From Sipunculus nudus (Eukaryota; Annelida; Sipuncula; Golfingiida; Sipunculidae), in NCBI GenBank assembly GCA_026874595.1, contig CM049308.1:955001-1019000 (forward strand): a DNA stretch of 64,000 nt, in the 5' to 3' direction. The notes beneath the pieces were generated by a model, which worked only from the letters and a program-made list of their open reading frames with translations, was not told the DNA's origin and did not search any database. Positions 8,382 through 58,640 of the stretch are shown piece by piece. Numbering within the stretch: the stretch's first letter is position 1; each line of letters begins with the position of its first letter. A program made the position numbers and the translations under genes.

Positions 8382-8650
8382 AGCAGTTACTGAGCAGCTC
8401 AGCACAAGTGCTGCTAACAAGTTCCCAGCAGTTACTGAGCAGCTCAGCACAAGTGCTGCTAACAAGTTCCCAGCAGTTACTGAGTAGCTCAGCACAAATG
8501 CTGCTAACAAGTTCCCAGCAGTTACTGAGCAGCTCAGCACAAGTGCTGCTAACAAGTTCCCAGCAGTTACTGAGCAGCTCAGCACAAGTGCTGCTAACAA
8601 ATTCCCAGCAGTTACTGAGCAGCTCAGCACAAGTGCTGCTAACAAGTTCC
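8382..8650. repeat. Minisatellite, 45-bp unit, six copies
   Basis: Six nearly identical copies of a 45-bp unit containing CAGCAGTTACTGAGCAGCTC and AGCACAAGTGCTGCTAACAAG. Because 45 is a multiple of three, reading frames stay open on both strands (for example repeated LLSSSAQVLLTSSQQ on plus), but these are repeat artefacts. The unit contains the short inverted repeat AGCAC/GTGCT. Confidence 0.97.
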
Positions 8651-8863
8651 ATCTGATTTCTAAAAATCTCTCTGAACAATACCTGAAAAGAGTCACACAA
8701 CTATTCAATAACCATGAATGTATTTTTCTCTTCTCTCTGTTCTGCTGTAGTTTATTCTGTCATGAAGATGTTTTAAAAATTCTCTTAACAATAATAAATA
8801 TACAATAAATATATAAATCTTTTGCACAGCATTACATTATCATCATTTGGTTACAATGCACTA

Positions 8864-11800
8864 TATGGCTTGTTGCACCATCTACAAATACTTTTATCCC
8901 TTGGGACATGGCTTGTTGCACCAACTGCAATTATTCTTTTCCCTCTGAACATGGCTTGTGGCACCAACTACAAATACATTTTATCTCTCTGAACATGGCT
9001 TGTGGCACCATCTACAAATACTTTTTATCCCTCTGAACATGGCTTGTGGCACCATCTACAAATACTTTTTATCTCTCTGAACAGGGCTTGTGGCACAATC
9101 TACAAATACTTTTTATCCCTCTGAACATGGCTTGTGGCACAAACTACAAATACTTTTAATCTCTCTGAACATGGCTTGTGGCACAAACTACAAATACTTT
9201 TTATCTCTCTGAACAGGGCTTGTGGCACAATCTACAAATACTTTTTATCCCTCTGAACATGGCTTGTGGCACAAACTACAAATACTTTTAATCTCTCTGA
9301 ACATGGCTTGTGGCACAAACTACAAATACTTTTTATCTCTCTGAACATGGCTTATGGCACCATCTACAAATACTTTTTATCTCTCTGAACATGGCTTATG
9401 GCACAAACTACAAATACTTTTTATCTCTCTGAACATGGCTTATGGCACAAACTACAAATACTTTTTATCTCTCTGAACATGGCTTGTGGCACCATCTACA
9501 AATACTTTTTATCTCTCTGAACATGGCTTGTGGCACAAACTACAAATACATTTTATCTCTCTGAACATGGCTTGTGGCACAAACTACAAATACTTTTTAT
9601 CTCTCTGAACATGGCTTATGGCACCATCTACAAATACTTTTTATCTCTCTGAACATGGCTTATGGCACCATCTACAAATACTTTTTATCTCTCTGAACAT
9701 GGCTTATGGCACCATCTACAAATACTTTTTATCTCTCTGAACATGGCTTATGGCACCATCTACAAATACTTTTTATCTCTCTGAACATGGCTTATGGCAC
9801 CATCTACAAATACTTTTTATCTCTCTGAACATGGCTTATGGCACAAACTACAAATACTTTTTATCTCTCTGAACATGGCTTGTGGCACCATCTACAAATA
9901 CTTTTTATCTCTCTGAACATGGCTTGTGGCACAAACTACAAATACATTTTATCTCTCTGAACATGGCTTGTGGCACCAACTACAAATACTTTTAATCCCT
10001 CTGAACATGGCTTGTGGCACCATCTACAAATACTTTTTATCCCTCTGAACATGGCTTGTGGCACAAACTACAAATACTTTTTATCTCTCTGAACATGGCT
10101 TATGGCACCATCTACAAATACTTTTTATCTCTCTGAACATGGCTTATGGCACAAACTACAAATACTTTTTATCCCTCTGAACATGGCTTATGGCACCATC
10201 TACAAATACTTTTTATCTCTCTGAACATGGCTTATGGCACAAACTACAAATACTTTTAATCCCTCTGAACATGGCTTGTGGCACCATCTACAAATACTTT
10301 TTATCCCTCTGAACATGGCTTGTGGCACAAACTACAAATACTTTTTATCTCTCTGAACATGGCTTATGGCACAAACTACAAATACTTTTTATCTCTCTGA
10401 ACATGGCTTATGGCACAAACTACAAATACATTTTATCTCTCTGAACATGGCTTGTGGCACAAACTACAAATACTTTTTATCTCTCTGAACATGGCTTATG
10501 GCACCATCTACAAATACTTTTTATCTCTCTGAACATGGCTTATGGCACCATCTACAAATACTTTTTATCTCTCTGAACATGGCTTATGGCACCATCTACA
10601 AATACTTTTTATCTCTCTGAACATGGCTTATGGCACCATCTACAAATACTTTTTATCTCTCTGAACATGGCTTATGGCACAAACTACAAATACTTTTTAT
10701 CTCTCTGAACATGGCTTGTGGCACCATCTACAAATACTTTTTATCTCTCTGAACATGGCTTGTGGCACAAACTACAAATACATTTTATCTCTCTGAACAT
10801 GGCTTGTGGCACCAACTACAAATACTTTTAATCCCTCTGAACATGGCTTGTGGCACCATCTACAAATACTTTTTATCCCTCTGAACATGGCTTGTGGCAC
10901 AAACTACAAATACTTTTTATCTCTCTGAACATGGCTTATGGCACCATCTACAAATACTTTTTATCTCTCTGAACATGGCTTATGGCACAAACTACAAATA
11001 CTTTTTATCCCTCTGAACATGGCTTATGGCACCATCTACAAATACTTTTTATCCCTCTGAACATGGCTTGTGGCACAAACTACAAATACTTTTTATCTCT
11101 CTGAACATGGCTTATGGCACCATCTACAAATACTTTTTATCCCTCTGAACATGGCTTGTGGCACAAACTACAAATACTTTTTATCTCTCTGAACAGGGCT
11201 TGTGGCACCATCTACGAATACTTTTTATCCCTCTGAACATGGCTTGTGGCACCATCTACAAATACTTTTTATCCCACTGAACATGGCTTGAGGCACCATC
11301 TACAAATACTTTTTATCCCTCTGAACATGGCTTATGGCACCATCTACAAATACTTTTTATCTCTCTGAACATGGCTTGTGGCACCATCTACAATTACAAT
11401 GTACTTTTTATCCCTCTGAACATGGCTTGAGGCACAATCTACGAATACTTTTTATCCCTCTGAACATGGCTTGAGGCACCATCTACAAATACTTTTTATC
11501 CCTCTGAACATGGCTTGTGGCACAAACTACAAATACTTTTTATCCCACTGAACATGGCTTGTGGCACCATCTACAAATACTTTTTATCCCACTGAACATG
11601 GCTTGAGGCACCATCTACAAATACTTTTTATCCCTCTGAACATGGCTTATGGCACCATCTACAAATACTTTTTATCTCTCTGAACATGGCTTGTGGCACC
11701 ATCTACAATTACAATGTACTTTTTATCCCTCTGAACATGGCTTGAGGCACAATCTACGAATACTTTTTATCCCTCTGAACATGGCTTGAGGCACCATCTA

Positions 11801-14041
11801 CAAATACTTTTTATCCCTCTGAACATGGCTTGTGGCACAAACTACAAATACTTTTTATCTCTCTGAACAGGGCTTGTGGCACCATCTACGAATACTTTTT
11901 ATCCCTCTGAACATGGCTTGTGGCACCATCTACAAATACTTTTTATCTCTCTGAACATGGCTTGAGGCACAATCTACAAATACATTTCATCTCTCTGAAC
12001 ATGGCTTATGGCACCATCTACAAATACATTTCATCTCTCTGAACATGGCTTATGGCACCATCTACAAATACTTTTTATCCCTCTGAACATGGCTTGTGGC
12101 ACAAACTACAAATACTTTTTATCTCTCTAAGTATGGCTTTTGGCACCATCTACAAATACTTTTTATCCCTCTGAACTTGGTTTGTGGCGCAATCTACAAA
12201 TACTTTTTATCCCTCTGAAGATGGCTTGTTGCACAAACTACAAATACTTTTTATCTCTCTGAACAGGGCTTGTGGCACCATCTACAAATACTTTTTATCT
12301 CTCTGAACATGGCTTGAGGCACAATCTACAAATACATTTCATCTCTCTGAACATGGCTTATGGCACCATCTACAAATACTTTTTATCCCTCTGAACATGG
12401 CTTGTGGCACAAACTACAAATACTTTTTATCTCTCTAAGTATGGCTTTTGGCACCATCTACAAATACTTTTTATCCCTCTGAACTTGGTTTGTGGCGCAA
12501 TCTACAAATACTTTTTATCCCTCTGAAGATGGCTTGTTGCACAAACTACAAATACTTTTTATCTCTCTAAGTATGGCTTTTGGCACCATCTACAAAACTT
12601 TTTATCCCTCTGAACATGGCTTGTGGCGCCATCTACAAATACTTTTTATCCCATTTAACATGGCTTGTACTTCATCTACAAATGCCTTTTATTATTTCAA
12701 CATGGCTTGCAGCACAAACAACAAATTCTTTTTATCCCTCGAAACATGGCTTGTGGCACCATCTACAATTACAATGTACTTTTTATCCCTCTGAACAGGG
12801 CTTGTGGCACCATCTACGAATACCTTTTATCCCTCTGAACATGGCTTGTGGCGCCATCTACAATTATTTTATCCCATTTAACATGGCTTGTACTTCATCT
12901 ACAAATGCCTTTTATTATTTAAACATGGCTTGTAGCACAAACAACAAATTCTTTTTATCCCTCGAAACATGGCTTGTGGCACCATCTACAATTACAATGT
13001 ACTTTTTATCCCTCTGAACATGGCTTGAGGCACAAACTACAAATACTTTTTATCCCTCTGAACATGGCTTGTGGCACCATCTACAAATACTTTTTATCCC
13101 TCTGAACATGGCTTGTGGCACCATCTACAAATACTTTTTATCTCTCTGAACATGGCTTGAGGCACAATCTACAAATACATATCATCTCTCTGAACATGGC
13201 TTGTGGCACCATCTACAAATACTTTTTATCCTTCTGAACATGGCTTGTGGCACAATCTACAATTACTTTTTATCCGTCTGAACATGGCTTGTGGCACAAT
13301 CTACAAATACTTTTCATCTTTCTGCACATGGCTTGTGGCACCATCTACAAATACGTTTTATCCCACTGAACATGGCTTTTGACACCATCTACAAATACTT
13401 TTTATCTCTCTGAACATGGCTTGAGGCACAAACTACAAATACATTTCATCTCTCTGAACAGGGCTTGTGGCACCATCTACAAATACTTTTTATCCCACTG
13501 AACATGGCTTGTGACATCATCTACAAATACTTTTTATCTCTCTGAACATGGCTTGAGCCACAAACTACAAATACATTTCATCTCTCTGAACAGGGCTTGT
13601 GGCACCACCTACAAACACTTTTTATCCCACTGAACATGGCTTGTGGCACCACCTACAAATACTTTTTATCCCACTGAACATGGCTTGTGGCACCACCTAC
13701 AAATACTTTTTATCCCACTGAACATGGCTTGTGGCACCACCTACAAATACTTTTTATCCCACTGAACATGGCTTGTGGCACCACCTACAAATACTTTTTA
13801 TCCCACTGATCATGGCTTGTGGCACCATCTACAAATACTTTTTATCCATCTGAACATGGCTTGTGGCACCATCTACAAATACTTTTTATCCCACTGAACA
13901 TGGCTTGTGGCACCACCTTCAAATACTTTTTATCCCACTGAACATGGCTTGTGGCACAATCTACAAATACTTTTTATCCCACTGAACATGGCTTGTGGCA
14001 CCACCTACAAATACTTTTTATCCCTCTGAACATGGCTTCTG
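8864..14041. repeat. Giant minisatellite, 44-bp unit, about 117 copies
   Basis: Units of the form ACATGGCTTGTGGCACCATC then TACAAATACTTTTTATCTCTCTGA. Variants (TTGTGG or TTATGG; CACCATC, CACAAAC or CACCAAC; ATCTCTCT or ATCCCTCT) occur in ordered strings, which shows higher-order structure. The string beginning at 9961 is repeated in the same order at 10797, exactly 836 bp (19 units) later. Units at 11300-11470 recur at 11620-11790, and a set with ACTTGGTTTGTGGCGC recurs at 12170 and 12480. The 3' part is more diverged, with GTACTTCATC and CACTGAACATGG forms. No coding role is apparent. Confidence 0.98.
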
Positions 14042-14239
14042 GGGCAAACAATGAAACTCAATAGAGGGTCACAAGCCCATGTCTAAGTCAATGTCTGGGG
14101 ATCATTTGCCATCTTTAATGTCAGAAATGCCAAGGGATCTAACATTAACAGAGACTTTTCAGTAGGGGACGTTTATCCACAAAGTTACACATGGTTACAC
14201 TGTTCAGAAAGGGGACTTGTATCCACAAAGTTACATATG

Positions 14240-14650
14240 GTAACATATCAGCAGGGTGGTTACAACTTTCAGTAATAAAAATCATACACCAATACCTTGG
14301 TATCAGCAGGGTGGTTACACCATTCAGTAATAACAATTTTACACCAATACTGTGGTATCAGCAGCGTAGGTACACGGTTCAGTAATAACAATCATACACC
14401 ACTACTGTGGTATCAGCAGGGTAGGTACACCGTTCCGTATTAACAATCATACACCTTCACTGTGGTATCAGCAGGGTAGTTACACTGCTCCGTAGATGGA
14501 ATACTGTGGTATCAGCAGGGTGGTTACACAGTTCAGTAATAACAATCATACACCACTACTGTGGTATCAACAGGGTGTTTACACCCTTCAGTAATAACAA
14601 TCATACACCAAGACTGTGGTATCAGCAGGGTTGTTACACCATTCGGTAAT
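14240..14650. repeat. Minisatellite, 55-bp unit, about seven copies
   Basis: Copies of a 55-bp unit with GTGGTATCAGCAGGGTGGTT, ACACCATTCAGTAATAACAA and TCATACACCA blocks. A shorter related pair containing GGGGAC..TATCCACAAAGTTACA lies just upstream (14164-14250). The copies vary by single substitutions and one shortened unit near 14480-14510. The array abuts an intact short H1 element at 14669. Confidence 0.9.
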
Positions 14651-26662: not shown

Positions 26663-26748
26663 CATGCCAGCCATGACTGCCTGAGAATATCTTCCAGGGA
26701 ACAGCCCAGCCAGCCCAAACATGCCACCCTGCAATACTGCACTGCTGG
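26663..26748 (-). CDS. ENT exon d: TM4 end and start of TM5
   Basis: An 86-bp exon: two bases completing a split Ala codon, then 28 codons. The acceptor is TTGTTGTTGCAG and the donor G|GTGAGT. The product, SSAVLQGGMFGLAGLFPGRY then SQAVMAGM, matches human ENT1 SFGAILQGSLFGLAGLLPAS and the TM5 start IMSGQ. The FGLAG(L)FP signature of the family is clear. The Gln equivalent to human Gln158, a nucleoside-contacting residue in TM4, is kept. The residue equivalent to human Gly154 is Ser, as in human ENT2, and the residue after the TM5 MAG is Met instead of the usual Gln. Frame and phase agree with exons c and e. Confidence 0.95.
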
Positions 26749-27535: not shown

Positions 27536-30114
27536 CTAGACATTTCTTGGCATCGCCAGTACCAGAGTACCCCCAGACATAGTAGGCCCGCCCCATTTAA
27601 GAATAGGCCCCCGTTTTCAGCAGTATATACTTACACTTGGCAAGCAGTTATTGTTTCTTTCATCTATCAATCCACAATCTTTTTGAAGATGTTGGTCCTT
27701 TGACCTTGACCTTTGACCTCATGACCCCAAAATCAATTGGGGTCTTGCTTTTTCAATGGGACATATATAAGTCAAGTTTGAAATCTATACATCAATAAAA
27801 GCAGGAATTATCATCCAGAAACTAATTTTTTGACAGATAGCTCCTGTGGCCTTGACCTTTGACCTTGTGACCCCAAAATTTATATGGATTACCCACTATT
27901 GGCAAGTGAGCTATATATTCAAGATAAAAGATCTGGGATGAAAGTATGGCTTAAAATGCATCCACAACCTTTTTAAAGAGGTTAACTGTGACCTTGACCT
28001 TTGACCTCATGACCCCAAAATCAATTCGGGTCTTGCTTTTCCAATAAGACATATGCAAGTATAGTTCGAAATCCATACATCAATAAAAGCAGGAATTAAC
28101 ATCCAGATACTAATTCTTGGACAGTTGGCTCCTGTGGCCTTGGCCTTTGACCTTGTGACCCCAAAATTTATATGGATTATCCACTATTGGCAAGTGAGCT
28201 ATATATTCAGGATGGAAGACCTGGGATGAAAGTTTGGCTTAAAATGCATCCAAATCTTTTTAAAGATGTGTCCTGTGACCTTGACCTTTGACCTCATGAC
28301 CCCAAAATCAATATGGGTCTTGCTTTTCCAATGGGACATACACAAGTCAAGTTTGAAATCCATACATCAATAAAAGCAGGAATTATCATCCAGAAACTAA
28401 TTTTTGGACAGATAGCTCCTGTGACCTTGACCTTTGCCCTTTTGACCCGAAAATTGATATGGATCATTCACTATTGGCAAGTGAGCTATATATTCAAGAT
28501 GGAAGACCTGGGATGAAAGTTTGGCTTAAAATGCATCCACAGTATCTTTTAAAATGCCAGTCCAGTGACCTTGACCTTTGACCTCATGACCCTAGAACCT
28601 ATAGGGTTCTTACTTTAGTGGTGGGCCATACATAAGTCATGTTTGAAATCCATATGGCTATCAACACTGGAGATATCATAAGAGGTGTGTGATTTTCACC
28701 ATATATGGCAATATTCAAGGTCAAGGCCACTATCATAGGAAAGGTCATGACCCCAATTTAAATAAACATCATCCCATAACCCATAGCTATGTATATGCAT
28801 AATATAAAAGAAATTTGTCCATTAGTTTTTGACTTATAATGCTCACAGTACTGTAAGGTGGCAATTTTGGGGGTATTAAACGTCATGAAAACAAGTAAAG
28901 AATAATAGGTGGCGCCACCAGTACAAGTCAAGTTTGAAATCCATACATCAATAAAAGCAGGAATTATCATCCAGAAACTAATTTTTGGACAGATGGCCCC
29001 TGTGACCTTCACCTTTGACCTTGTGACCTCAAAACTGATAGGGGTCTTCTTCTATTGGCAGATGACTTACATGTGCAAGATGAAAGGTCTGAGATGAAAT
29101 GTTTGGCTGAAAATGCATCCACAATCTTTTTAAAGATGTGTCCTGTGACCTTGACCTTTGACCTCATGACCCCAAAATCAATTGGTGTCTTGCTTTTTCA
29201 ATGGGACATATATAAGTCAAGTTTGAAATCAATACATCAATAAAAGCAGGAATTATCATCCAGAAACTAATTTTTGGACAGATAGCTCCTGTGGCCTTGA
29301 CCTTTGACCTTGTGACCCCAAAATTGATATGGATCATCCACTACTGGCAAGTGAGCTATATATTCAAGATGGAAGACCTTAGATGAAAGTTTGGCTTAAA
29401 ATGCATCCACAGTATCTTTTAAAATGCCAGTCCAGTGACCTTGACCTTTGACCTCATGACCCTAGAACCTATAGGGTTCTTACTTTAGTGGTGGGCCATA
29501 CATAAGTCATGTTTGAAATCCATATGGCTATCAACACTGGAGATATCATAAGAGGTGTGTGATTTTCACCATATATGGCAATATTCAAGGTCAAGGCCAC
29601 TATCATAGGAAAGGTCATGACCCCAATTTAAATAAACATCATCCCATAACCCATAGCTATGTATATGCATAATATAAAAGAAATCTGTCCATTAGTTTTT
29701 GACTTATAATGCTCACAGTACTGTAAGGTGGCAATTTTGGGGGTATTAAACGGCACGAAAACAAGTAAAGAATAATAGGTGGCGCCACCAGTTTCTGGAA
29801 CATGACAACCCTATCCATGATCTTCCATCAACTTGATTTTGGGATAAATCCATGCAAGATTTCTTGAGATATTAAAGAATTTGTGTGATTTTCCCCAAAA
29901 TTGGACCTATTCAAGGTCAAGGACACTCTCCTAGTAAAGGTCATGACCTCATTTTAAATAGGCGTCCGCCTCTCACCCATATCTATACATATACCAAGTT
30001 TGGTAAAGTTCCGTGAAATATTTTTTGGGTTATCGCGCCAACAAGATTTATATGCGGCGGCGGCGGGACCGGTATGAAAACATAGTATCCCCCGACTTTG
30101 TCTGGGGATACAAT
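27536..30114 (-). mobile_element. H2 Helitron, copy 1 (2.6 kb) with tandem core
   Basis: Non-autonomous Helitron-like element. On the minus strand it starts ATTGTATCCCCAGACAAAGT, forming a terminal hairpin (30085-30111), and ends with AAGAAATGTCTAG followed by T, the Helitron CTAG^T signature. Its 3' hairpin is partly decayed compared with copy 2. The core consists of tandem units of about 289 bp, each with GACCTTGACCTTTGACCTCA and AAATCCATACATCAATAAAA blocks. An 870-bp offset duplication is visible: 28561-28920 recurs at 29431-29790, both ending with GGTGGCGCCACC. No Rep/helicase sequence is present. Short plus-strand frames (for example 28909-29097) repeat with the core and are not genes. 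Confidence 0.85.
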
Positions 30115-33290: not shown

Positions 33291-34290
33291 TAAATTGACA
33301 CATGACAGGGCCAAGGTCACAAATGTTTGAACTTGTCTGACAGCTTGGTATAGATTGTTGTGTCAAATTTGAAGGTAACAGATGCAGTACTTATGGGGTT
33401 GACCATAATTCTGTTTCCAAAGATTTGAAAACAGATGGCTCATGTCACATTGACCTTTGACCTTGTGACCCAACAATTGGTAGGAATCTTCACCCATTGG
33501 CAGGTGAACTATATTTGCAAGAGAGAAGGCTTGGGATGAAAAGAATTGCTTAAAATGCATCCATAATCTTTTATAGATGTGGCTCTTGCGACCTTTACCT
33601 TTGACCTCATGACCCCAAAATTAATAAGATTCTTGCTTTATTAATGGGCCATATATAGGTCAAGTTTTAAAACCCGTATATCAATCCAAGCTTGAGTTTT
33701 CATCAGAAAATGAATATCTGGACAGATGGCTCCTGTGACCTTCACCTTTAACCCTTAACCCCATATTCATATGGATCTGCCTCTATTTGTAGGTGAGCTA
33801 TATCTGCGAGGAGAAAGGTCTGTGATAAATGTTTGGCTTAATATGCATCCACAATCTTTTATAGATGTGGGTCCTGTGACCATGACCTTGACCTCATGAC
33901 CTCAAAATTAAGTGGTCTTGCTTTATTGATGGGCCATATGTAATTCAAGTTTGAAATCCATATATTAATCAAAGCTGGAATTATCATCTCGGAACCTAAT
34001 TTTTGACAAATGGCTCCTGTGACCTTCATCTTGGACCTTGTGACCTCAAAATTGATAGGGGTCTTTCTCTATTGGAAGGTGAACTATATGTGCAAGATGA
34101 AAGGTCCAAGAAAAGTGTCGCTGAATATGCATCCACAATCTATTAAAGATGTGTCCTGTGACCTTGACCTTTGACCTCATTACCCCAAAATCATTTCGGG
34201 TCTTGCTTTTTCAATGGGATATATATCAGTCAAGTTTGAAATCCATACATCAATAAAAGCTGGAATTATCATCCAGAAACTAATTTTTTT
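33290..34290 (-). mobile_element. Old H2-type core array
   Basis: Three to four diverged units of the H2 core (GACCTTTGACCTTGTGACC, CTCCTGTGACCTTC, TGAACTATATTTGCAAG and AATGCATCCA blocks). Neither terminal hairpin was found. It is more diverged than the H2 copies at 27536 and 55387, so it is an older insertion. It joins an H1-type relic at about 34290. Confidence 0.65.
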
Positions 34291-34911: not shown

Positions 34912-34962
34912 CATTCATTATAACCACTGTTACAAGGGTAACGGCAAAAAACTGAGTCTGCC
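34912..34962 (-). CDS. ENT exon c: TM4 (51-bp small exon)
   Basis: A 51-bp exon: two bases completing a split Trp codon, 16 codons, and one base of a split Ala codon. The acceptor is ATTTTTCAG and the donor G|GTGAGT. The product, QTQFFAVTLVTVVIMN, matches the start of TM4 in human ENT1 (LPFFVITMIKIVLIN). The closing Asn equals human Asn151. It is too short to be found by length alone. The call rests on two matched phases and the family alignment on both sides. It lies between a transposon end and the 31-bp minisatellite. Confidence 0.93.
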
Positions 34963-35141: not shown

Positions 35142-38100
35142 CATAGTCTATACCTGAGCTAAAATAATATATCATAGTCTATACCAGGGCTATAACAATA
35201 TATCAAAGTCTATACCAGGGCTATAACATAAGGATATATCATAGTCTATACCAGGGCTATAAGGATATATCATAGTCTATACCAGGGCTATGATGATATA
35301 TCATAGTCTATAACAGGGCTATAAGGATACATCATATAGTCTATAACAGGGCTATAAGGATATATCATAGTCTATACCAGGGCTATAACATAAGGATATA
35401 TCATAGTCTATACCAGGGCTATAAGGATACATCATAGTCTATAACAGGGCTATAAGGATATATCGTAGTCTATACCAGGGCTATAAGGATACATCATAGT
35501 CTATACCAGGGCTTTAAGGATATATCGTAGTCTATACCAGGGCTATAACATAAGGATATATCATAGTCTATACCAGGGCTATAAGGATATATCGTAGTCT
35601 ATACCAGGGCTATAAGGATATATCATATACTATACCAGGGCTATAAGGATATATCATAGTCTATAACAGGGCTATAACATAAGGATATATCATAGTCTAT
35701 ACCAGGGCTATAAGATATAATCGTAGTCTATACCAGGGCTATAAGGATACATCATAGTCTATACCAGGGCTTTGAGGATATATCATAGTCTATACCAGGC
35801 CTATAACATAAGGATATATCATAGTTTATAACAGGGCTATAACATAAGGATATATCATAGTCCATACCAGGGCTATAAGGATATATCAAAGTCTATACCA
35901 GGGCTATAACATAAGGATATATCATAGTTTATAACAGGGCTATAACATAAGGATATATCATAGTCTTTACCAGGGCTATAAGATATAATCGTAGTCTATA
36001 CCAGGGCTATAAGGATACATCATAGTCTATACCAGGGCTATAAGGATACATCATAGTCTATACCAGGGCTATAAGGATACATCATAGTCTATACCAGGGC
36101 TATAAGGATACATCATAGTCTATACCAGGGCTATAAGGATATATCATAGTCTATACCAGGGCTATAAGGATATATCATAGTCTATACCAGGGCTATAAGG
36201 ATATATCATAGTCTATACCAGGGCTATAAGGATATATCATAGTCTATACCAGGGCTATAAGGATATATCATAGTCTATACCAGGGCTATAAGGATATATC
36301 ATAGTCTATACCAGGGCTATAAGGATATATCATAGTCTATACCAGGGCTATAAGGATATATCGTAGTCTATACCAGGGCTATAAGGATATATCGTAGTCT
36401 ATACCAGGGCTATATCATAAGGATATATCATAGTCTATACCAGGGCTATAAGGATACATCATAGTCTATACCAGGGCTATAAGAATACATCAGAGTCTAT
36501 ACCAGAGCTATCAGGATATATCGTAGTCTATACCAGGGCTATAAGGATACATCATAATCTATACCAGGGCTATAAGGATATACCATAGTCTATACCAGAG
36601 CTATAAGGATACATCATAGTCTATACCAGGGCTATAAGGATATACCATAGTCTATACCAGGGATATAAGGATATATCATAGTATATACCAGGGCTATAGG
36701 GATACATCATAGTCTATACTAGGGCAATAAGGATATATCATAGTCTATACCAGGGCTATAAGGATACATCATAGTCTATAACAGGGCTATAAGGATACAT
36801 CATAGTCTATACCAGGGCTATAAGGATATATCATAGTCTATACCAGAGCTATAAGGATACATCATAGTCTATACCAGGGCTATAAGGATATATCATAGTC
36901 TATACCAGGGATATAAGGATATATCATAGTCTATACCAGGGCTATATGGATACATCATAGCCTATACCAGGGCTATAAGGATATATCATAGTCTATACCA
37001 GGGCTATAAGGATACATCATAGTCTATACCAGGGTTATAAGGATATATCATAGTCTATACCAGAGCTATAAGGATATATCATAGTCTATACCAGGGCTAT
37101 AAGGATACATCATAGTCTATAACAGGGCTATAAGGATACATCAGAGTCTATACCAGGGCTATAAGGATATATCATAGTCTATACCAGAGCTATAAGGATA
37201 TATCGTAGTCTATACCAGGGCTATAAGAATACATCATAGTCTATACCAGGGCTATAAGGATACATCATAGTCTTTACCAGGGCTATAAGGATACATCATA
37301 GTCTATACCAGGGCTATAAGGATATATCATAGTCTATACCAGGGATATAAGGATATATCATAGTCTATACCAGGGCTATAAGGATACATCATAGTCTATA
37401 CCAGGGCTATAAGGATACATCATAGTCTTTACCAGGGCTATAAGGATATATCATAGTCTATACCAGGGCTATATGGATACATCATAGCCTATACCAGGGC
37501 TATAAGGATATATCATAGTCTATACCAGGGCTATAAGGAAACATCATAGTCTATACCAGGGTTATAAGGATATATCATAGTCTATACCAGAGCTATAAGG
37601 ATATATCATAGTCTATACCAGGGCTATAAGGATACATCATAGTCTATAACAGGGCTATAAGGATACATCAGAGTCTATACCAGGGCTATAAGGATATATC
37701 ATAGTCTATACTAGGGCTTTAAGGATATATCATAGTCTATAACAAGCTACAAGAATATATCATAGTCTATAACAAGCTACAAGAATATATCATAGTCTAT
37801 ACCAGGGCTATAAGGATACATCAGAGTCTATACCAGGGCTATAAGGATATATCGTAGTCTATACCAGGGCTATAAGGATATATCATAATCTATACCAGGG
37901 CTATAAGGATATACCATAGTCTATACCAGGGATATAAGGATATATCATAGTCTATACCAGGGCTATAAGGATATATCATAGTCTATACCAGGGCTATAAG
38001 GATACATCATAGTCTATACCAGGGCTATAAGGATACATCATAGTCTATACCAGGGCTATAAGGATATATCATAGTCTATACCAGGGCTATGATGATATAT

Positions 38101-40472
38101 CATAGTCTATACCAGGGCTATAAGGATATATCATAGTCTATACTAGGGCTATAAGGATACATCATAGTCTATACCAGGGCTATAAGGATATATCATAGTC
38201 TATACCAGGGCTATAAGGATACATCATAGTCTATACCAGGGCTATAAGGATATATCATAGTCTATACCAGGGCTATAAGGATACATCATAGTCTATACCA
38301 GGGCTATAAGGATACATCATAGTCTATACCAGGGCTATAAGGATATATCATAGTCTATACCAGGGCTATAAGGATTTATCATAGTCTATACCAGGGCTAT
38401 AAGGATACATCATAGTCTATACCAGGGCTATAAGGATATATCATAGTCTATACCAGGGCTATAAGGATATATCATAGTCTATACCAGGGCTATAAGGATA
38501 CATCATAGTCTATACCAGGGCTATAAGGATACATCATAGTCTATACTAGGGCTATAAGGATACATCATAGTCTATACCAGGGCTATAAGGATACATCATA
38601 GTCTATACCAGGGCTATAAGGATATATCATAGTCTATACCAGGGCTATGATGATATATCATAGTCTATACCAGGGCTATAAGGATATATCATAGTCTATA
38701 CTAGGGATATAAGGATACATCATAGTCTATACCAGGGCTATAAGGATATATCATAGTCTATACCAGGGCTATAAGGATACATCATAGTCTATACCAGGGC
38801 TATAAGGATATATCATAGTCTATACCAGGGCTATGATGATATATCATAGTCTATACCAGGGCTATAAGGATATATCATAGTCTATACTAGGGCTATAAGG
38901 ATACATCATAGTCTATACCAGGGCTATAAGGATATATCATAGTCTATACCAGGGCTATAAGGATATATTGTAGTCTATACCAGGGCTATAAGAATACATC
39001 ATAGTCTATACCAGGGCTATAAGGATACATCATAGTCTATACCAGGGCTATAAGGATACATCATAGTCTATACCAGGGCTATAAGGATATATCATAGTCT
39101 ATACCAGGGCTATGATGATATATCATAGTCTATAACAGGGCTATAAGGATACATCATAGTCTATACCAGGGCTATAATGATATATTATACTAGGGCTATA
39201 ACATAGTGTACATGTATCAGGGCTATAAGGATATATCATAGTCTATACTAGGGCTTTAAGGATATATCATAGTCTATAACAAGCTACAAGAATATATCAT
39301 AGTCTATAACAAGCTACAAGAATATATCATAGTCTATAACAAGCTACAAGAATATATCATAGTCTATAACAAGCTACAAGAATATATCATAGTCTATACC
39401 AGGGCTATAGTGTATATTATAGTCTATACTTGGGCTATAGTGTATATTATAGTCTATACTTGGGCTATAGTGTATATTATAGTCTATACCAGGGCTATAA
39501 TGATATATTATAGTCTATACTTGGGCTATAAGGATATATCATAGTCTATAACAGGGCTATAAGGATACATCAGAGTCTATACCAGGGCTATAAGGATATA
39601 TCATAGTCTATACCAGGGCTATAAGGATATATCATAGTCTATACCAGAGCTATAAGGATATATTGTAGTCTATACCAGGGCTATAAGAATACATCATAGT
39701 CTATACCAGGGCTATAAGGATACATCATAGTCTATACCAGGGCTATAAGGATATATCATAGTCTATACCAGGGCTATGATGATATATCATAGTCTATAAC
39801 AGGGCTATAAGGATACATCATAGTCTATACCAGGGCTATAATGATATATTATACTAGGGCTATAACATAGTGTACATGTATCAGGGCTATAAGGATATAT
39901 CATAGTCTATACTAGGGCTTTAAGGATATATCATAGTCTATAACAAGCTACAAGAATATATCATAGTCTATAACAAGCTACAAGAATATATCATAGTCTA
40001 TAACAAGCTACAAGAATATATCATAGTCTATAACAAGCTACAAGAATATATCATAGTCTATACCAGGGCTATAGTGTATATTATAGTCTATACTTGGGCT
40101 ATAGTGTATATTATAGTCTATACTTGGGCTATAGTGTATATTATAGTCTATACTTGGGCTATAGTGTATATTATAGTCTATACTTGGGCTATAGTGTATA
40201 TTATAGTCTATACTTGGGCTATAGTGTATATTATAGTCTATACTTGGGCTATAGTGTATATTATAATCTATACTTGGGCTATAGTGTATATTATAGTCTA
40301 TACTAGGGCTATAGTGTATATTATAGTCTATACTAGGGCTTTAAGGATATATCATAGTCTATAACAAGCTACAAGAATATATCATAGTCTATAACAAGCT
40401 ACAAGAATATATCATAGTCTATACCAGGGCTATAGTGTATATTATAGTCTATACTTGGGCTATAACGATACA
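35142..40472. repeat. Giant minisatellite, 31/30-bp unit, about 170 copies
   Basis: Units such as ATAAGGATATATCATAGTCT plus ATACCAGGGCT. Variants include ACATCAT or ATATCAT, longer units with ATAACATAAGG, a 31-bp AACAAGCTACAAGAATATAT form, and a 30-bp TTGGGCTATAGTGTATATTA form amplified at 40063-40330. A block containing ACATAGTGTACATGTATCAG followed by the AACAAGCTACAAG units occurs at 39177 and again at 39841, 664 bp apart. The 30-bp form keeps reading frames open (YTWAIVYIIV repeated), which is an artefact. The array begins 180 bp upstream of ENT exon c in gene order. Confidence 0.98.
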
Positions 40473-44481: not shown

Positions 44482-44977
44482 AAGTAGAAGTTTTGGGAAA
44501 ATGTGTTGCATATGAAGAAGAGAAGCCTAGCTTAGCTGAGCCAAGGAAGATGCCTGGAGTTAAACTAGTTAAATAACATAGGTGAGGGCTGCATCACTCA
44601 CTGCTGAATACTTCACTGGATTGGTGTGATGTAAAAACACCTGACTTGTTGTCTAAGAACTTGAATAAGTGCTACTCTTTTTTACAAATTCCTTTCAAAT
44701 TTCAGATTATAAAATTTAATCTTTATGTGTATATGCTATGTAAATAAAATCAACATTGATTGCATGTGAAAATGTGCCATGGTCAATGCTTGCAAAATTG
44801 ATGGTATTGATTTTACATTTATGCTATTAAATTGAAAAATTAACAAAATTCTAATCTGATTTCTGGCATAGAATTAAATCTTGATTGAGTTTTATCCTTG
44901 AACAAAAGTCTTTAGCTTTAACAGTTACCATGTTAAAAGAAGAAATATATTTCCTGATGTTTTAACAAACTGCATTA
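44482..44977. repeat. H1 interior relic up to the 27-bp array
   Basis: Related to 49800-50280 (GTGAGGGCTGCATCACTCAC, AACTTGAATAA, GTGCCATGGTCAA blocks). It proceeds as far as TTTAACAAACTGCATTATGT, where in other copies GGGCCCATAACTT follows. Here the 27-bp minisatellite begins at that point. Confidence 0.6.
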
Positions 44978-46150
44978 TGTTCAAAGAACAATACAAAGAT
45001 GTTGTGGTCAAAGAACTGTACAAAGATGCTGTGGTCAAAGAACTGTACAAAGATGTTGTGGTCAGAGAACTGTACAAAGATGTTGTGGTCAGAGAACTGT
45101 ACAAAGATGTTGTGGTCTGAGAACTGTACAAAGATGTTGTGGTCAGAGAACTGTACAAAGATGTTGTGGTCAGAGAACTGTACAAAGATGTTGTGGTCAG
45201 AGAACTGTACAAAGATGTTGTGGTCAGAGAACTGTACAAAGATGTTGTGGTCAGAGAACTGTACAAAGATGTTGTGGTCAGAGAACTGTACAAAGATGTT
45301 GTGGTCAGAGAACTGTACAAAGATGTTGTGGTCAGAGAACTGTACAAAGATGTTGTGGTCAAAAAACAGAACAAAGATGTTGTGGTCAGTGAAATATACA
45401 AAGATGTTGTGGTCAGAGAACTGTATAAAGATGTTGTGGTCAAAGAACTGTACAAAAATGTTGTGGTCAGAGAAATGTTCAAAGATGTTGTGGTCAGAGA
45501 ACTGTACAAAGATGTTGTGGTCAGAGAAATATACAAAGATGTTGTGGTCAGAGAACTGTACAAAGATGTTGTGGTCAGAGAACTGTACAAAGATGTTGTG
45601 GTCAGAGAACTGTACAAAGATGTTGTGGTCAAAGAACTGTACAAAGATGTTGTGGTCAGAGAAATATACAAAGATGTTGTGGTCAGAGAACTGTACAAAG
45701 ATGTTGTGGTCAGTGAAAAATACAAAGATGTTGTGGTCAGAGAACTGTACAAAGATGTTTTGGTCAGAGAACTGTATAAAGATGATGTGGTCAGAGAACT
45801 GTATAAAGATGTTGTAGTCAAAGAACTGTACAAAGATGTTGTGGTCAGAGAAATGTACAAAGATGTTGTGGTCAGAGAACTGTGCAAAGATGTAGTGGTC
45901 AGAGAAATGTATAAAGATGTTGTGGTCAAAGAACTGTACAAAGATGTTGTGGTCAGACAACTGTACAAAGATGTTGTGGTCAGAGAACTGTACAAAGATG
46001 TTGTGGTCAGAGAACTGTACAAAGATGTTGTGGTCAAAGAACAGAACAAAGATGTTGTGGTCAGTGAAATATACAAAGATATTGTGGTTATATTACTGTT
46101 CAAAGATGTTGTTGTCAGAGAAATATACAAAGATTATGTACAAAGAGAAC
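44978..46150. repeat. Minisatellite, 27-bp unit, about 43 copies
   Basis: Units of GATGTTGTGGTCAGAGAACT then GTACAAA. The 27-bp period is a multiple of three and the unit lacks stops in most frames. It gives open frames of 401 and 332 residues on minus and 339 and 272 on plus (repeats such as VVRELYKDV or SLYSSLTTT). They start inside the repeat, lack any non-repeat domain and overlap on both strands, so I do not call genes. The array ends four bases from the splice donor of ENT exon b. Confidence 0.97.
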
Positions 46151-46154
46151 TTAC

Positions 46155-46249
46155 ATGAGTCTGTGCTTATCTTGGACAGCGTGACAGTGATAGCAAACAA
46201 AATGATCATCACCAGAGATGACAGGATCATACGGGCTTGTAACGGGATC
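46155..46249 (-). CDS. ENT exon b: TM3
   Basis: A 95-bp exon: one base completing Leu, 31 codons, and one base of a split Trp codon. The acceptor is ACAATTTCAG and the donor T|GTAAGT. The product begins IPLQARMILSSLVMIILFAI and ends TVTLSKISTDS. It matches human ENT1 IPQSVRILGSLVAILLVFLI from the end of the TM2-TM3 loop through TM3. The IP start and the Arg at the third position after Gln are shared with the human protein. The exon is flanked by minisatellites on both sides, with only 4 and 31 bp between. The correct frame is hidden, because another minus-strand frame is longer across this segment. Confidence 0.94.
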
Positions 46250-46280
46250 CTGAAATTGTACAAAATTACATTCAGAACAG

Positions 46281-47600
46281 TGACAAATTGTATCAGAACA
46301 CGGGTGTGCTTGTAACACAGTGGTTTCTGACAAATTGGATCAGCTCACAGGTGTGTTTGTAACACAGTGGATACTGACAAATTGTATCAGCTCACAGGTG
46401 TGTTTTTAACACCATGGATTCTGACAAATTCTATCAGCTCACAGGTGTGTTTGTAATACCATGGATTCTGACAAATTGTATCAGCTCACAGAAGTGTTTG
46501 TAATACTGTGGATTCTGACAAACTGTATCAGCTCACAGGTGTGTTTGTAATACCATGGATTCTGACAAATTCTATCAGCTCACAGGTGTGTTTTTAACAT
46601 CATGGATTCTGACAAATTGTATCAGCTCACAGGTGTGTTTGTAATACTGTGGATTCTGCAAACTGTATCAGCTCACAGGTGTGTTTGTAATACTGTGGAT
46701 TCTGACAAACTGTATCAGCTCACAGGTGTGTTTGTAATACTGTGGATTCTGACAAACTGTATCAGCACACAGGTGTGTTTGTAATACCGTGGATTCTGAC
46801 AAATTGTATCAGATCACAGGTGTGCTTGCAATACCTCAGATTCTAAAAAATTGTATCAGCTCACAGGTGTGTTTGTAATACCATGGATTCTGAGAAATTG
46901 TATATAAGCTCACAGGTGTGCTTGTAAAACCATGGTTTCTGACAAACTGTATCAGCTCACAAGTGTGCTTGCAATACTATGGATTCTGACAAATTGTATC
47001 AGCTCACAGGTGTGCTTGTAACACAGTGGATTCTGACAAATTGGATCAGCTCACAGATGTGTTTTTAACGTCGTGGATTCTGACAAATTGTATCAGCTCC
47101 CTGGTGAGCTTGTAACACTGTTGAATCTGACAAATTGTATCAGCTCACGGGTGTGTTTTTAACACCATGGATTCTGACAAATTGTATCAGCTCACAGGTG
47201 TGTTTGTAATACCATGGATTCTGAAAAATTGTATATTAGCTCACAGGTGTGCTTGTAAAACCATGGTTTCTGACAAACTATATCAGCTCACAGGTGTGCT
47301 TGCAATACCATGGATTCTGACAAATTGTATCAGCTCACAGGTGTGCTTGTAACAGTGGATTCTGACAAATTGGATCAGCTCACCAGTGTGTTTTTAACAT
47401 CGTGGATTCTGACAAATTGTATCAGCTCCCTGGTGTGCTTGTAACACCGTGGAATCTGACAAATTGTATCAGCTCACGGGTATGTTTTTAAAACCATGGA
47501 TTCTGACAAATTGTATCAGCTCACAGATGTGCTTGTAAAACCGTGGATTCTGACAATTTGTATCAGCTCATGGGTGTGCTTGTAACACTGTGATTCTGAA
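46281..47600. repeat. Minisatellite, 47-bp unit, about 28 copies
   Basis: Units of ATTCTGACAAATTGTATCAG, CTCACAGGTGTGTTTGTAAT and ACCATGG, with variants TTTTTAACACC and GCTTGCAATACC. A longer block (46850-47150) is repeated in similar order at 47200-47470. It fills most of the 1.7-kb intron between exons a and b. Confidence 0.96.
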
Positions 47601-47955: not shown

Positions 47956-48113
47956 AGCTTGGTGGCAACAGTATTGAGGAACATAAAGAGGACATTTGGG
48001 AGCATTGCAGCGATTGCTAAATATCCCTCAAACGTGACCTGTAGCTCCGTTTGGTTGGTCTGCTGGTCCGGGGTGTAGGGTAATGTGACATTACGAAACT
48101 TGTACATAAAATA
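47956..48113 (-). CDS. ENT exon a: TM1-TM2 loop and TM2
   Basis: A 158-bp exon: 52 codons and two bases of a split Leu codon. The acceptor is CTTTTTCAG and the donor CT|GTAAGT. It starts YFMYKFRNVTLPYTP, matching human ENT1 YFTNRLDMSQNVS at the same phase-0 position after TM1. It continues to a TM2 helix YLAIAAMLPNVLFMFLNTVA (human VMTLCAMLPLLLFTYLNSFL). Two N-glycosylation sequons (NVT at residues 8-10, NQT at 20-22) lie in the extracellular loop, where human ENT1 is glycosylated. The loop is about 20 residues shorter than human. The AMLP motif is kept, and the residue equivalent to human Leu92 is Asn. The upstream exon with TM1 was not found in the remaining 16 kb. Confidence 0.94.
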
Positions 48114-54242: not shown

Positions 54243-55386
54243 TTATAAAAAAATATATATATATATCTTTATTCTTACAAGGAAGTACAGTACATTATAC
54301 GCAATGAATAGAAATATGAAATAAATGAAAGATATACAGAAAGAAGGCAAGAAAATGAAAGTTAAGTCCATGTCCATACCTATTACAAAATTGGTTGATA
54401 ATAAATCAATTAGCATTTTAACCTCATTGGCGGTCAATTGTGAGGTACATATTCTATCTTTGCATTCTATCAATTCTGACAGTAAATCTAAATTAATGGA
54501 TGTTGTTACCATCATCAACCGTCTCTTAAGTATCTTTATATTTCTAATGTCGCATTGTATCCCATGGTTGTGTAACTGACTTTCCAGATATCGTAAGTTG
54601 CCTCCAAGTACACCAATTGAGGTATAATGAGCTCTCTTTGTCAGAAAATTTACAAAGTCATTTGCAACATCCTGCATGTTCAGAAATAAATTTATAAAGC
54701 ATGAGCTGATTATATTTAACAGAGCTGGAGAGCCCGCCAATCCATGTACAATATTCTTGTGCAAGTTATATGGTAAGTGCCATAGGGTACGCAGAGCCTT
54801 ATTATATGATGTACTTAATCAATTAATTGACTTATGCTTTAATAACCAGGTTTGACAGCCGTAAAAGGAAGAACAATAAGAGGGAAATAGCCCGTTCTTA
54901 ACCTTGCTTGAAAGACATCCCAATTTCCATTTAAGGTGTTAAAGCTTGCAATAAATTTGACTCTTTTACCAAAGATGTCATTGTTATCTGACAAGTTCCA
55001 AGTTAATGTATTCCCCAAGTACTGTACAGAATCCTGCCATTCTAGGGAAACACCATTTAAAATGATCTTATCTGACCTAGCTAGATACATCCTGTTAAAA
55101 AGAACACATTTTGTTTTCTTTGCATTATATAACATATCAAATTCTTCAGAAAAGGTTTCACACTCGATAAACATCTGTTGAAGCCTGATCCAAGTCGGGC
55201 ATAAGAGTGTAAGATCTCCGCACAGCCAACAGCACCAGCAAAATAATTTCCAATATAACATCCTATTCCCTTATTTGTCAGACATTTTAAAAGCTCATCC
55301 GTATAAATATTAAACAGAAGGGGGGTGGCGTACACCATTATTAGCACCAAACTGTTCAGATTCAACATCCTTCCATTTTGTTTTAA
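54243..55386 (-). pseudogene. LINE reverse transcriptase, C-terminal part (broken)
   Basis: Minus-strand remnant of a non-LTR retrotransposon ORF2. In order it shows PLLFNIYTDELLKCLTNKGI, a damaged catalytic box, TLLCP, EEFDMLYNAKKTKCVLF, VQYLGNTLTWNLSDNNDI, then HKNIVHGLAGSPALLNIISS and a C-terminal tail. The YADD box is broken: its Tyr codon reads Cys and one base is missing, which shifts frame near 55220. The sequence ends with an (AT)n tract at 54246-54264 instead of a poly(A) tail. It continues into 58281-58640 across an H2 insertion. The clade is not assigned. Confidence 0.85.
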
Positions 55387-58280
55387 CTAGACATTTCTTG
55401 GCACCGCAGGTGCCAGAGTATCCCCAGATTTAGTAGGCCCCCACCCCCTTTATAAATAGACCCCCATTTTTAGCAGCATATACTGACACTTGGCATATTT
55501 ATTGTTTCTTCCATCTAACAATCCACAATCTTCTTGAAGATGTTGGTCCTGTGACCTTGATCTTTTTAAAGAGGTTTCCTGTGACCTTGACCTTTGACCT
55601 CATGGCCCCAAAATTAATTCTGGTCTTGCTTTTCCAATGGGACATATGGAAGTTAAGTTTGAAATCTAAACATCAATAAAGCAGGAATTATCACCCAGAA
55701 ACTAATTTTTGGACAGATGGCTCCTGTGACCTTCACCTTTGGCCTTGTGACCTCAAAATTGATAGTGTTCTTCCTCTCTTGGCAGGAGAACTATATGTGC
55801 AAGATGAAAGATATGAGATGAAATGTTTGGCTGAAAATGCATCCACATCTTTTTAAAGATGTGTCCTGTGACCTTGACCTTTGACCTCATGACCCCAAAA
55901 TCTATTTGGGTCTTGCTTTTCCAATGGGACATATACAAGTCAAGTTTGAAATCCATACATCAATAAAAGCAGGAATTATCATCCAGAAACTAATTTTTGG
56001 ACAGATGGCTCCTGTGACCTTCACCTTTGACCTTGTGACCTCAAAATTGATAGTGTTCTTCCTCTCTTGGCAGGAGAACTATATGTGCAAGATGAAAGAT
56101 CTGAGATGAATTGTTTGGCTGAAAATGCATCCACATCTTTTTAAAGATGCGTCCTGTGACCTTGAACTTTCACCTCATGACCCCAAAATTAATTTGGGTC
56201 TTGCTTTTCCAATGGGACATATACAAGTCGAGTTTGAAATCCATACATCAATAAAAGCAGGAGTTATCATCCAGAAACTAATTTTTGGACAGATGGCTCC
56301 TGTGACCTTCACCTTTGACCTTGTGACCTCAAAATTGATAGGGGTCTTCCACTCTTGGCAGGTGAACTATATGTGCAAGATGAAAGATCTGAGATGAAAT
56401 GTTTGGCTGAAAATGCATCCACAATCTTTTTAAAGAGGTTTCCTGTGACCTTGACCTTTGACCTCATGACCCCAAAATCAATTCAGGTCTTGCTTTCCCT
56501 ATGGGACATATACAAGTCAAGTTTGAAATCCATACATCAATAAAAGCAGGAATTATCATCCAGAAACTAAATTTTGGACTGATGGCTCCTGTGACCTTCA
56601 CCTTTGACCTTGTGACCTCAAAATTGATAGGGGTCTTCCACTCTTGGCAGGTGAACTATATGTGCAACATGAAAGATCTGAGATGAATTGTTTGGCTGAA
56701 AATGCATCCACAATCTTTTTAAAGAGGTTTCCTGTGACCTTGACCTTTGACCTCATGACCCCAAAATCAATTCAGGTCTTGCTTTTCCAATGGGTCAAAT
56801 ACAAGTCGAGTTTGAAATCCATACATCAATAAAAGAAGGAATTATCATCTAGAAACTAATTTTTGGACAGATGGCTCCTGTGACCTTCACCTTTGACCTT
56901 GTGACCTCAAAATTGATAGGGTTCTTCCTCTCTTGGCAGGTGAACTATATGTGCAAGATGAAAGATCTGAGATGAAATGTTTTGCTGAAAATGCATCCAC
57001 ATCTTTTTAAAGGTGTGTCCTGTGACCTTGACCTTTGACCTCATAACCTCAAAATCAATTTGGGTCTTGCTTTCCCAATGGGACATATATAAGTCAAGTT
57101 TGAAATCCATACATCAATAAAAGCAGGAATTATCATCCAGAAACTAATTTTTGGACAGATGGCTCCTGTGACCTTCACCTTTGACCTTGTGACCTCAAAA
57201 CTGATAGGGGTCTTCCTCTATTGGCAGATGACTTACATGTGCAAGATGAAAGGTCTGAGATGAAATGTTTGGCTTAAAATGCATCCACAGTATCTTTTAA
57301 AATGCCCGTCCTGTGACCTTGACCTTTGACCTCATGACCCCAAAATCAATTGGAGTCTTGCTTTTTTAATGGGACATATATAAGTCAAGTTTGAAATCAA
57401 TACATCAATAAAAGCAGGAATTATCATCCAGAAACTAATTTTTGGACAGATAGCTCCTGTGGCCTTGACCTTTGACCTTGTGACCCCAAAATTGATATGG
57501 ATCATCCACTACTGGCAAGTGAGCTATATATTCAAGATGGAAGACCTAAGATGAAAGTTTGGCTTAAAATGCATCCACAGTATCTTTTAAAATGCCAGTC
57601 CAGTGACCTTGACCTTTGACCTCATGACCCTAGAACCTATAGGGTTCTTACTTTAGTGGTGGGCCATACATAAGTCATGTTTGAAATCCATATGGCTATC
57701 AACACTGGAGATATCATAAGAGGTGTGTGATTTTCACCATATATGGCAATATTCAAGGTCAAGGCCACTATCATAGGAAAGGTCATGACCCCAATTTAAA
57801 TAAACATCATCCCATAACCCATACCTATGTATATGCATAATATAAAAGAAATCTGTCCATTAGTTTTTGACTTACAATGCTCACAGTACTGTAAGGTAGC
57901 AATTTTGGGGGTATTAAACGGCACGAAAACAAGTAAAGAATAATAGGTGGCGCCACCAGTTTCTGGAACATGACAACCCTATCCATGATCTTCCATCAAC
58001 TTGATTTTGGGATAAATCCATGCAAGATTTCTTGAGATATTAAAGAATTTGTGTGATTTTCCCCAAAATTGGACCTATTCAAGGTCAAGGACACTCTTAG
58101 TAAAGGTCATGACCTCATTTTAAATAGGCGTCGTCCTCTCACCCATATCTATACATATACCAAATTTGGTAAAGTTCCGTGAAATATTTTTTGGGTTATC
58201 GCGCCAACAAGATTTATATGCGGCGGCGGCGGGACCGGTATGAAAACATAGTATCCCCCGACTTTGTCTGGGGATACAAT
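55387..58280 (-). mobile_element. H2 Helitron, copy 2 (2.9 kb), inserted in a LINE
   Basis: On the minus strand it starts ATTGTATCCCCAGACAAAGT, with a terminal hairpin at 58251-58277. It ends with a six-base-arm hairpin (GGCACC TGC GGTGCC), nine bases, and CTAG followed by T, the canonical Helitron 3' structure. The core has about six tandem units of 289 bp (GACCTTGACCTTTGACCTCA at about 55874, 56440, 56735, 57024 and 57313). The interrupted reverse transcriptase frame is rejoined in phase if exactly this segment is removed, with no target-site duplication. The 5' 1.0 kb is almost identical to that of copy 1 at 27536. No transposase is encoded. Confidence 0.92.
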
Positions 58281-58640
58281 AACAGGTCTGGTAGATATCT
58301 GCTAATTTTCTAATGACAGTAGGTGGAACATTGACTTTCAGAAGTAAATGGAACAACTTGGGAATATTGATTCTGTTAAAAGCCCATGAAGCATCAACAA
58401 AACAACTGTATACTGATGAACCATTCCATGTGTAATGTCAATAACCTCCTTCAGAACTACTGTGCACATATGCATGTTAGTAGAATGCCCCTTCTTCAAA
58501 GCATATTGCAGTGGAGAAAGGCCATGTTTATCTACATTTTTCTGAATGATAACACTATCAAGTAGTTTGCTGAAACAACTTGTCAATGAAATATCCCTGT
58601 ATTTTCCATAAGTCTCTGTCACGACTATTATATGTCATGT
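58281..58640 (-). pseudogene. LINE reverse transcriptase, N-terminal part of the same copy
   Basis: Minus-strand reading gives YGKYRDISLTSCFSKLLDSV, SPLQYALKKGHSTN, LKEVID, then HLLLKVNVPPTVIRKLADIY followed by QTC. These are the first reverse transcriptase blocks (xYRxISLxSxxxKLLExxI and FxxxxSTxxxxxxL). At QTC the frame is cut by the H2 insertion. Frameshifts are present near 58440 and 58360. The copy is 5'-truncated near 58640, as is usual for LINEs. It pairs with 54243-55386. Confidence 0.85.

Follow-up and report, generated by a model that had tools for sequence, protein, structure and literature searches.

Why does a short coding exon lie between two different minisatellites that run almost up to its splice sites, and what relation do the repeats bear to those sites? 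The exon in question, exon b of a putative equilibrative nucleoside transporter (ENT) gene, is located in a 64-kb stretch of the Sipunculus nudus genome (hereafter the window, in whose coordinates all positions are given). Our analysis confirmed the anatomy of the region and added to it, with moderate confidence based on sequence comparison, that each repeat unit appears to resemble the exon junction that it faces.

Exon b and the arrays on both sides

The ENT gene model used here consists of five assembled exons on the reverse strand: exon a (47956-48113, 158 nt), exon b (46155-46249, 95 nt), micro-exon c1 (34912-34962, 51 nt, sequence WQTQFFAVTLVTVVIMN), which is the next after exon b, exon c (26663-26748, 86 nt), and exon d (2177-2323, 147 nt). 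Joined through GT-AG introns, these exons yield an uninterrupted frame of 179 residues. Residues 95-177 of the resulting peptide, which come after the portion encoded by exon b, matched the Pfam family Nucleoside_tran (PF01733) with 62.4 bits (cut-off 29.8, E = 6.3e-17); when only exons a and b were translated, no Pfam family was hit even with E values up to 1 allowed. The match to the human ENT1 chain 6ob6_A (E = 3.7e-30) covers residues 21-179 of 179 and spans exon b, and the peptide of exons a and b by itself also matched human ENT1 (E = 6.9e-05). The splice sites of exon b are ...TTTCAG/G at the acceptor and T/GTAAGTTC at the donor, and skipping of the exon would shift the frame and lead to a stop within the part encoded by exon d. 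The initial annotation had assumed that exon b is a real coding exon, which is supported by the open frame of the five exons and by the human ENT1 match: judged by these sequence features, it belongs, as an ordinary coding exon, to an equilibrative nucleoside transporter (SLC29) gene, with transport as the predicted function.

Tandem Repeats Finder (TRF) delineated two arrays on the reverse strand: a 27-bp minisatellite (44981-46134, 42.7 copies, 91% matches) in the intron after exon b and a 47-bp minisatellite (46281-47599, 28.1 copies) in the intron before it. In both arrays, the units are arranged head to tail and fall in the size range of about 10-100 bp that defines minisatellites. A gap of 146 bp separates the two, and exon b lies inside it, so that the initial description of an exon between two different minisatellites is confirmed; of the 2,619 bases of positions 44981-47599, the TRF arrays leave 146 uncovered. 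The 47-bp array begins at 46281, exactly the 31 bp ahead of the acceptor that had been noted. The statement that the 27-bp array ends 4 bp past the donor stands only if degenerate border copies are counted: by TRF, the array ends at 46134, leaving 20 intron bases (46135-46154) up to exon b. Wrap-around alignment, however, takes the array as far as the donor GT if one missing base is allowed. The donor and border copy GTAAGTTCTCTTTGTACATAAT (46133-46154, reverse strand), the last two bases of which lie within the TRF array, fits the register of the 27-bp unit with this one missing base, and therefore the remark that the start of the intron is already repeat-like was right.

Read along the transcribed strand, the unit of the 27-bp array is CTTTGTACAGTTCTCTGACCACAACAT. 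The 1154-bp array of these units contains no GTAAG and no GTGAG; GTACAG occurs in it 26 times and TTCTCT 28 times, UUCUCU being a PTB-like motif. The transcribed strand of the 47-bp array contains 22 copies of TTTGTCAG and 22 of GTGAG. This array is also repetitive on a larger scale, with 16 overlapping blocks of 300 nt that show 61-88% similarity to the reference copy and may come from exchange of multi-unit blocks. One search pattern for each of the two units gave no exact matches in viral contigs.

Similarity between the repeat units and the junctions

At the acceptor, a segment of 13 intron and 31 exon bases (46219-46262, reverse strand) can be aligned, with gaps, to the 47-bp unit. Among 4000 random segments of the window, 15, 14, and 40 matched the 47-bp consensus as well as this junction did under scoring schemes A, B, and C, respectively, and when a longer junction segment was compared with the unit, 48 (A), 34 (B), and 30 (E) of 12148 segments did so. 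Against the real array, 46, 182, and 59 of 7748 segments did as well (A, B, and E). The ungapped score of the acceptor was ordinary (786/4000), either half of the junction taken alone gave p values of 0.03 to 0.18, and the pairing of the acceptor with the 27-bp unit, expected to be null, also scored (123/4000 in A). Furthermore, the spacing of the acceptor copy breaks the register of the array: the next copy is 73 bp away, where 47 or 94 would be expected. A manually designed edge variant of the 47-bp unit was equaled by 0, 11, 1, and 11 of 12148 segments in schemes A, B, E, and F (the counts in F being identical to those in B), and, having been composed after the far-edge copies had been seen, it was excluded as evidence.

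At the donor, GTAAGTTCTCT aligns in register with GTACAGTTCTCT of the 27-bp unit. With the phase anchored to the array, none of 1500 random window segments scored as well as the donor core in any of three schemes, and of 1500 segments forced to begin with GTAAGT, 1, 1, and 0 did; border and donor together were matched by 2, 5, and 1 of 1000 random segments. The anchor was derived from the wrap-around alignment and chosen after the alignments had been inspected, and these anchored counts are optimistic because the phase came from the alignment itself. In free phase, the donor region was equaled by 11, 148, and 58 of 4000 segments in schemes A, B, and C when compared with the 27-bp consensus and, in another comparison with the unit under scheme B, by 580 of 12162. 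Trimmed clear of the TRF array and compared with the real array, it was equaled by 80, 812, and 184 of 7800 segments (A, B, and E). The donor segment overlapped the TRF array by three bases in the 4000-segment test, by two in the grid described below, and by none in the 7800-segment test. The strongest local match in free phase is not the donor itself but the border piece TCTTTGTACA just downstream of it.

These similarities have to be weighed against the possibility that the arrays grew from unrelated intron sequence, that chance, or selection halting the arrays at the splice sites, placed them next to the exon, and that the likeness to the junctions is fortuitous. The window is indeed dense in tandem repeats, ten TRF arrays making up about 20.4 of the 64 kb. 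Three different minisatellites, of 45 bp (8382-8650), 44 bp (8865-14042), and 55 bp (14246-14650), follow one another at intervals of about 200 bp, and in the gaps between them (8651-8864 and 14043-14245) no exon was recognized. Taken singly, the similarity tests gave p values of about 0.003 to 0.10, depending on the scheme. When the layout of the arrays was slid past the five exons, an exon fell wholly within the 146-bp gap at 0.33% of positions, a simple estimate that applies to the one gap around exon b.

As a control, each of seven minisatellite units was compared, in both orientations, with all ten exon junctions of the gene model, giving a grid of 140 cells in which the limits used for exons c and d deviated by one or two bases from the final ones. 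The cell pairing the 47-bp unit with the exon b acceptor ranked first of the 140 in schemes A, E, and B (0.0027, 0.0013, and 0.0005), and in the same three schemes the cell pairing the 27-bp unit with the exon b donor came second (0.0056), third (0.0146), and sixth (0.0494), respectively. That two cells joining neighbors stand at or near the top of the grid argues against chance, as does the register of the donor core, subject to the late choice of its anchor. Five of the seven minisatellites compared have no known exon alongside. Of the 13 array edges, both exon-facing ones showed similarity to the unit beyond the TRF boundary (p below 0.02), whereas among the remaining 11 only one did, on the left side of the 55-bp array. 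The far edges of the arrays likewise resemble the junctions, which also speaks against chance: their match was equaled by 117, 165, and 34 of 28408 overlapping segments for the acceptor and by 82, 181, and 156 of 28578 for the donor (A, B, and E). With this evidence on both sides, we regard an unrelated origin of the arrays as a real but lesser possibility.

Two further observations concern tandem repeats elsewhere in the window. A 5.3-kb array of 31-bp units (35142-40470) comes within about 180 bp of the acceptor of micro-exon c1, and in the grid, the 31-bp unit showed no marked likeness to the c1 junctions. Units of 285 to 288 bp that include CCTTTGACCT form three further arrays, at 27670-29524, 33431-34288, and 55560-57692, the first and third of which are very similar in unit sequence.

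Mobile elements and splicing potential

On its side away from exon b, the 27-bp array is bordered by a member (44640-44983) of a dispersed repeat family, other members of which start at about 7057, 21628, 25008, 25694, 43759, 49906, 52776, 53531, 59667, and 61759; identity in the matches is 71-77%, and ten aligned stretches yielded a 656-base consensus. Nine of the 14 other match rows in the window end at 44981-44983, the very start of the array, as would be expected if mobile elements inserted on both sides of exon b had brought the arrays with them. Against such an origin, the nine other aligned copies continue past this point, mostly with a common continuation and without such an array, and the consensus is unlike the 27-bp unit: comparison of the element with the unit gave scores of 14 and 15 against a shuffle mean of 15.7, and the element was rejected as its source. 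On the other side of the exon, the far flank of the 47-bp array matches only two stretches of 129 bp and 61 bp near 3.3-3.5 kb. Delivery of the arrays by mobile elements is, in our estimate, very improbable. Two open stretches on the reverse strand (54246-55386 and 58123-58634) resemble, in their translations, parts of a broken reverse transcriptase of a non-LTR retrotransposon.

The motif content of the arrays raises the question of whether they are active regulators, such that decoy splice sites or clusters of protein-binding motifs would let copy number set how often exon b is included. Besides the numerous TTTGTCAG, GTGAG, and TTCTCT copies, several features are compatible with this notion. 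Acceptor tracts were scored for exons a, b, and c1, and that of exon b is the weakest of the three: 9 of its 16 positions are pyrimidines, a number close to that of the decoys, whereas exon a has 15 and c1 has 14; loss of the exon would, moreover, disrupt the frame. With a hand-entered donor matrix, the common donor-like form of the 47-bp array, CCT/GTGAGC, scores 6.49 and the best site, CTG/GTGAGC, 10.13, compared with 6.04 for the donor of exon a and 8.54 for that of exon b. Use of any of the 22 decoy acceptors would lead to a stop, after 11 codons in 20 of the 22. On the other hand, the decoy acceptors, with 6-8 pyrimidines of 16, are poorer than the real one, the 27-bp array contains neither GTAAG nor GTGAG, and the predicted RNA folds of the two units and the exon b region are ordinary, being no stronger than those of shuffled sequences (z = 0.47, -0.38, and -0.23). 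We therefore consider active regulation by the arrays very unlikely; the decoys and the weak tract of exon b would provide grounds for testing splicing and are not evidence of an effect.

Looping out of exon b by complementary arrays, as in the formation of circular RNA, was considered as well and tentatively set aside: no strong complementarity was seen, the 27-bp array scoring 18 against the reverse complement of the 47-bp array and 21 against its same strand, in a comparison of the arrays alone that lacks a null distribution.

Proposed origin of the arrays

On balance, we think it probable that each array was born by tandem duplication of the junction sequence that it touches, with the outermost copy being the working splice site. 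Under this scenario, sequence spanning each junction, 27 bp at the donor and 47 bp at the acceptor, would have been duplicated in tandem into the adjoining intron, and slippage and unequal exchange would then have expanded and homogenized the duplicates. The copy at the outer end, attached to exon b, would remain functional because selection on the transporter exon holds it in place. The inner copies, free of this constraint, would have decayed to weak decoys, GTAAG giving rise to GTACAG at the donor and the acceptor to TTTGTCAG with an exon-like stub. The sequence itself shows the arrays, the exon, and the similarities together with their rarity in the window; we infer homology rather than chance behind these similarities, the order of these events, the role of slippage, and that the decoys are normally ignored. 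The earlier claim that the arrays extend right up to the splice signals is thereby supported and sharpened, in that each splice junction has the appearance of a terminal copy of its array.

The junction-unit similarities are short, gapped, and dependent on scoring, and the idea of junction seeding arose after the alignments had been inspected. Its support is moderate overall, varies with the scoring scheme, and in free-phase tests is greater at the acceptor. Our confidence in it is lowered because in scheme B the donor cell ranks no higher than sixth in the grid and because the free-phase match at the donor lies mainly in the border piece.

The closest known system that we found is the minisatellite with multiple splice donors in human IFI6 (G1P3, 6-16) (Turri, Cuin and Porter 1995, Nucleic Acids Res 23:1854, cited in PMC2572611, PMC2915984, and PMC3618361). 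As in IFI6, a minisatellite is located at a splice donor, the 27-bp array adjoining the donor of exon b, the use of which is predicted from the coding frame. In IFI6, going by the title of that report, the repeats supply the donors; the units of the 27-bp array, in contrast, carry no consensus donors, and the 22 GTGAG copies sit in the 47-bp array on the acceptor side. Exon b differs further in having a second, different array at its acceptor. In intron gain, tandem genomic duplication reportedly copies splice signals. Such intron gain also involves tandem duplication within a gene (PMC4974935). At exon b, by contrast, no new intron is seen, and the proposed duplicates would make up long arrays within introns that were already there. 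Short duplications are proposed to grow into long minisatellites by slipped-strand mispairing, and what would set exon b apart within this general model is the seed, a working splice junction. We found no report of junction-derived minisatellite arrays in the open-licence literature, a scope that does not show them to be unreported.

A broader reading is that splice junctions in general seed minisatellites, that both junctions of exon b built arrays, and that the array on the acceptor side is a cluster of pseudo-micro-exons variable in copy number. Use of a decoy acceptor would shorten the transporter message, and therefore the length of the array would tune transporter output. We consider this full reading unlikely.

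If junctions do seed arrays, fast-mutating repeats would arise precisely where a change in length can disturb splicing, and the arrays would keep a record of old splice-site sequence. The prediction for repeat-rich genomes is that arrays touching exons should carry decayed copies of the junctions more often than other arrays resemble their flanks.
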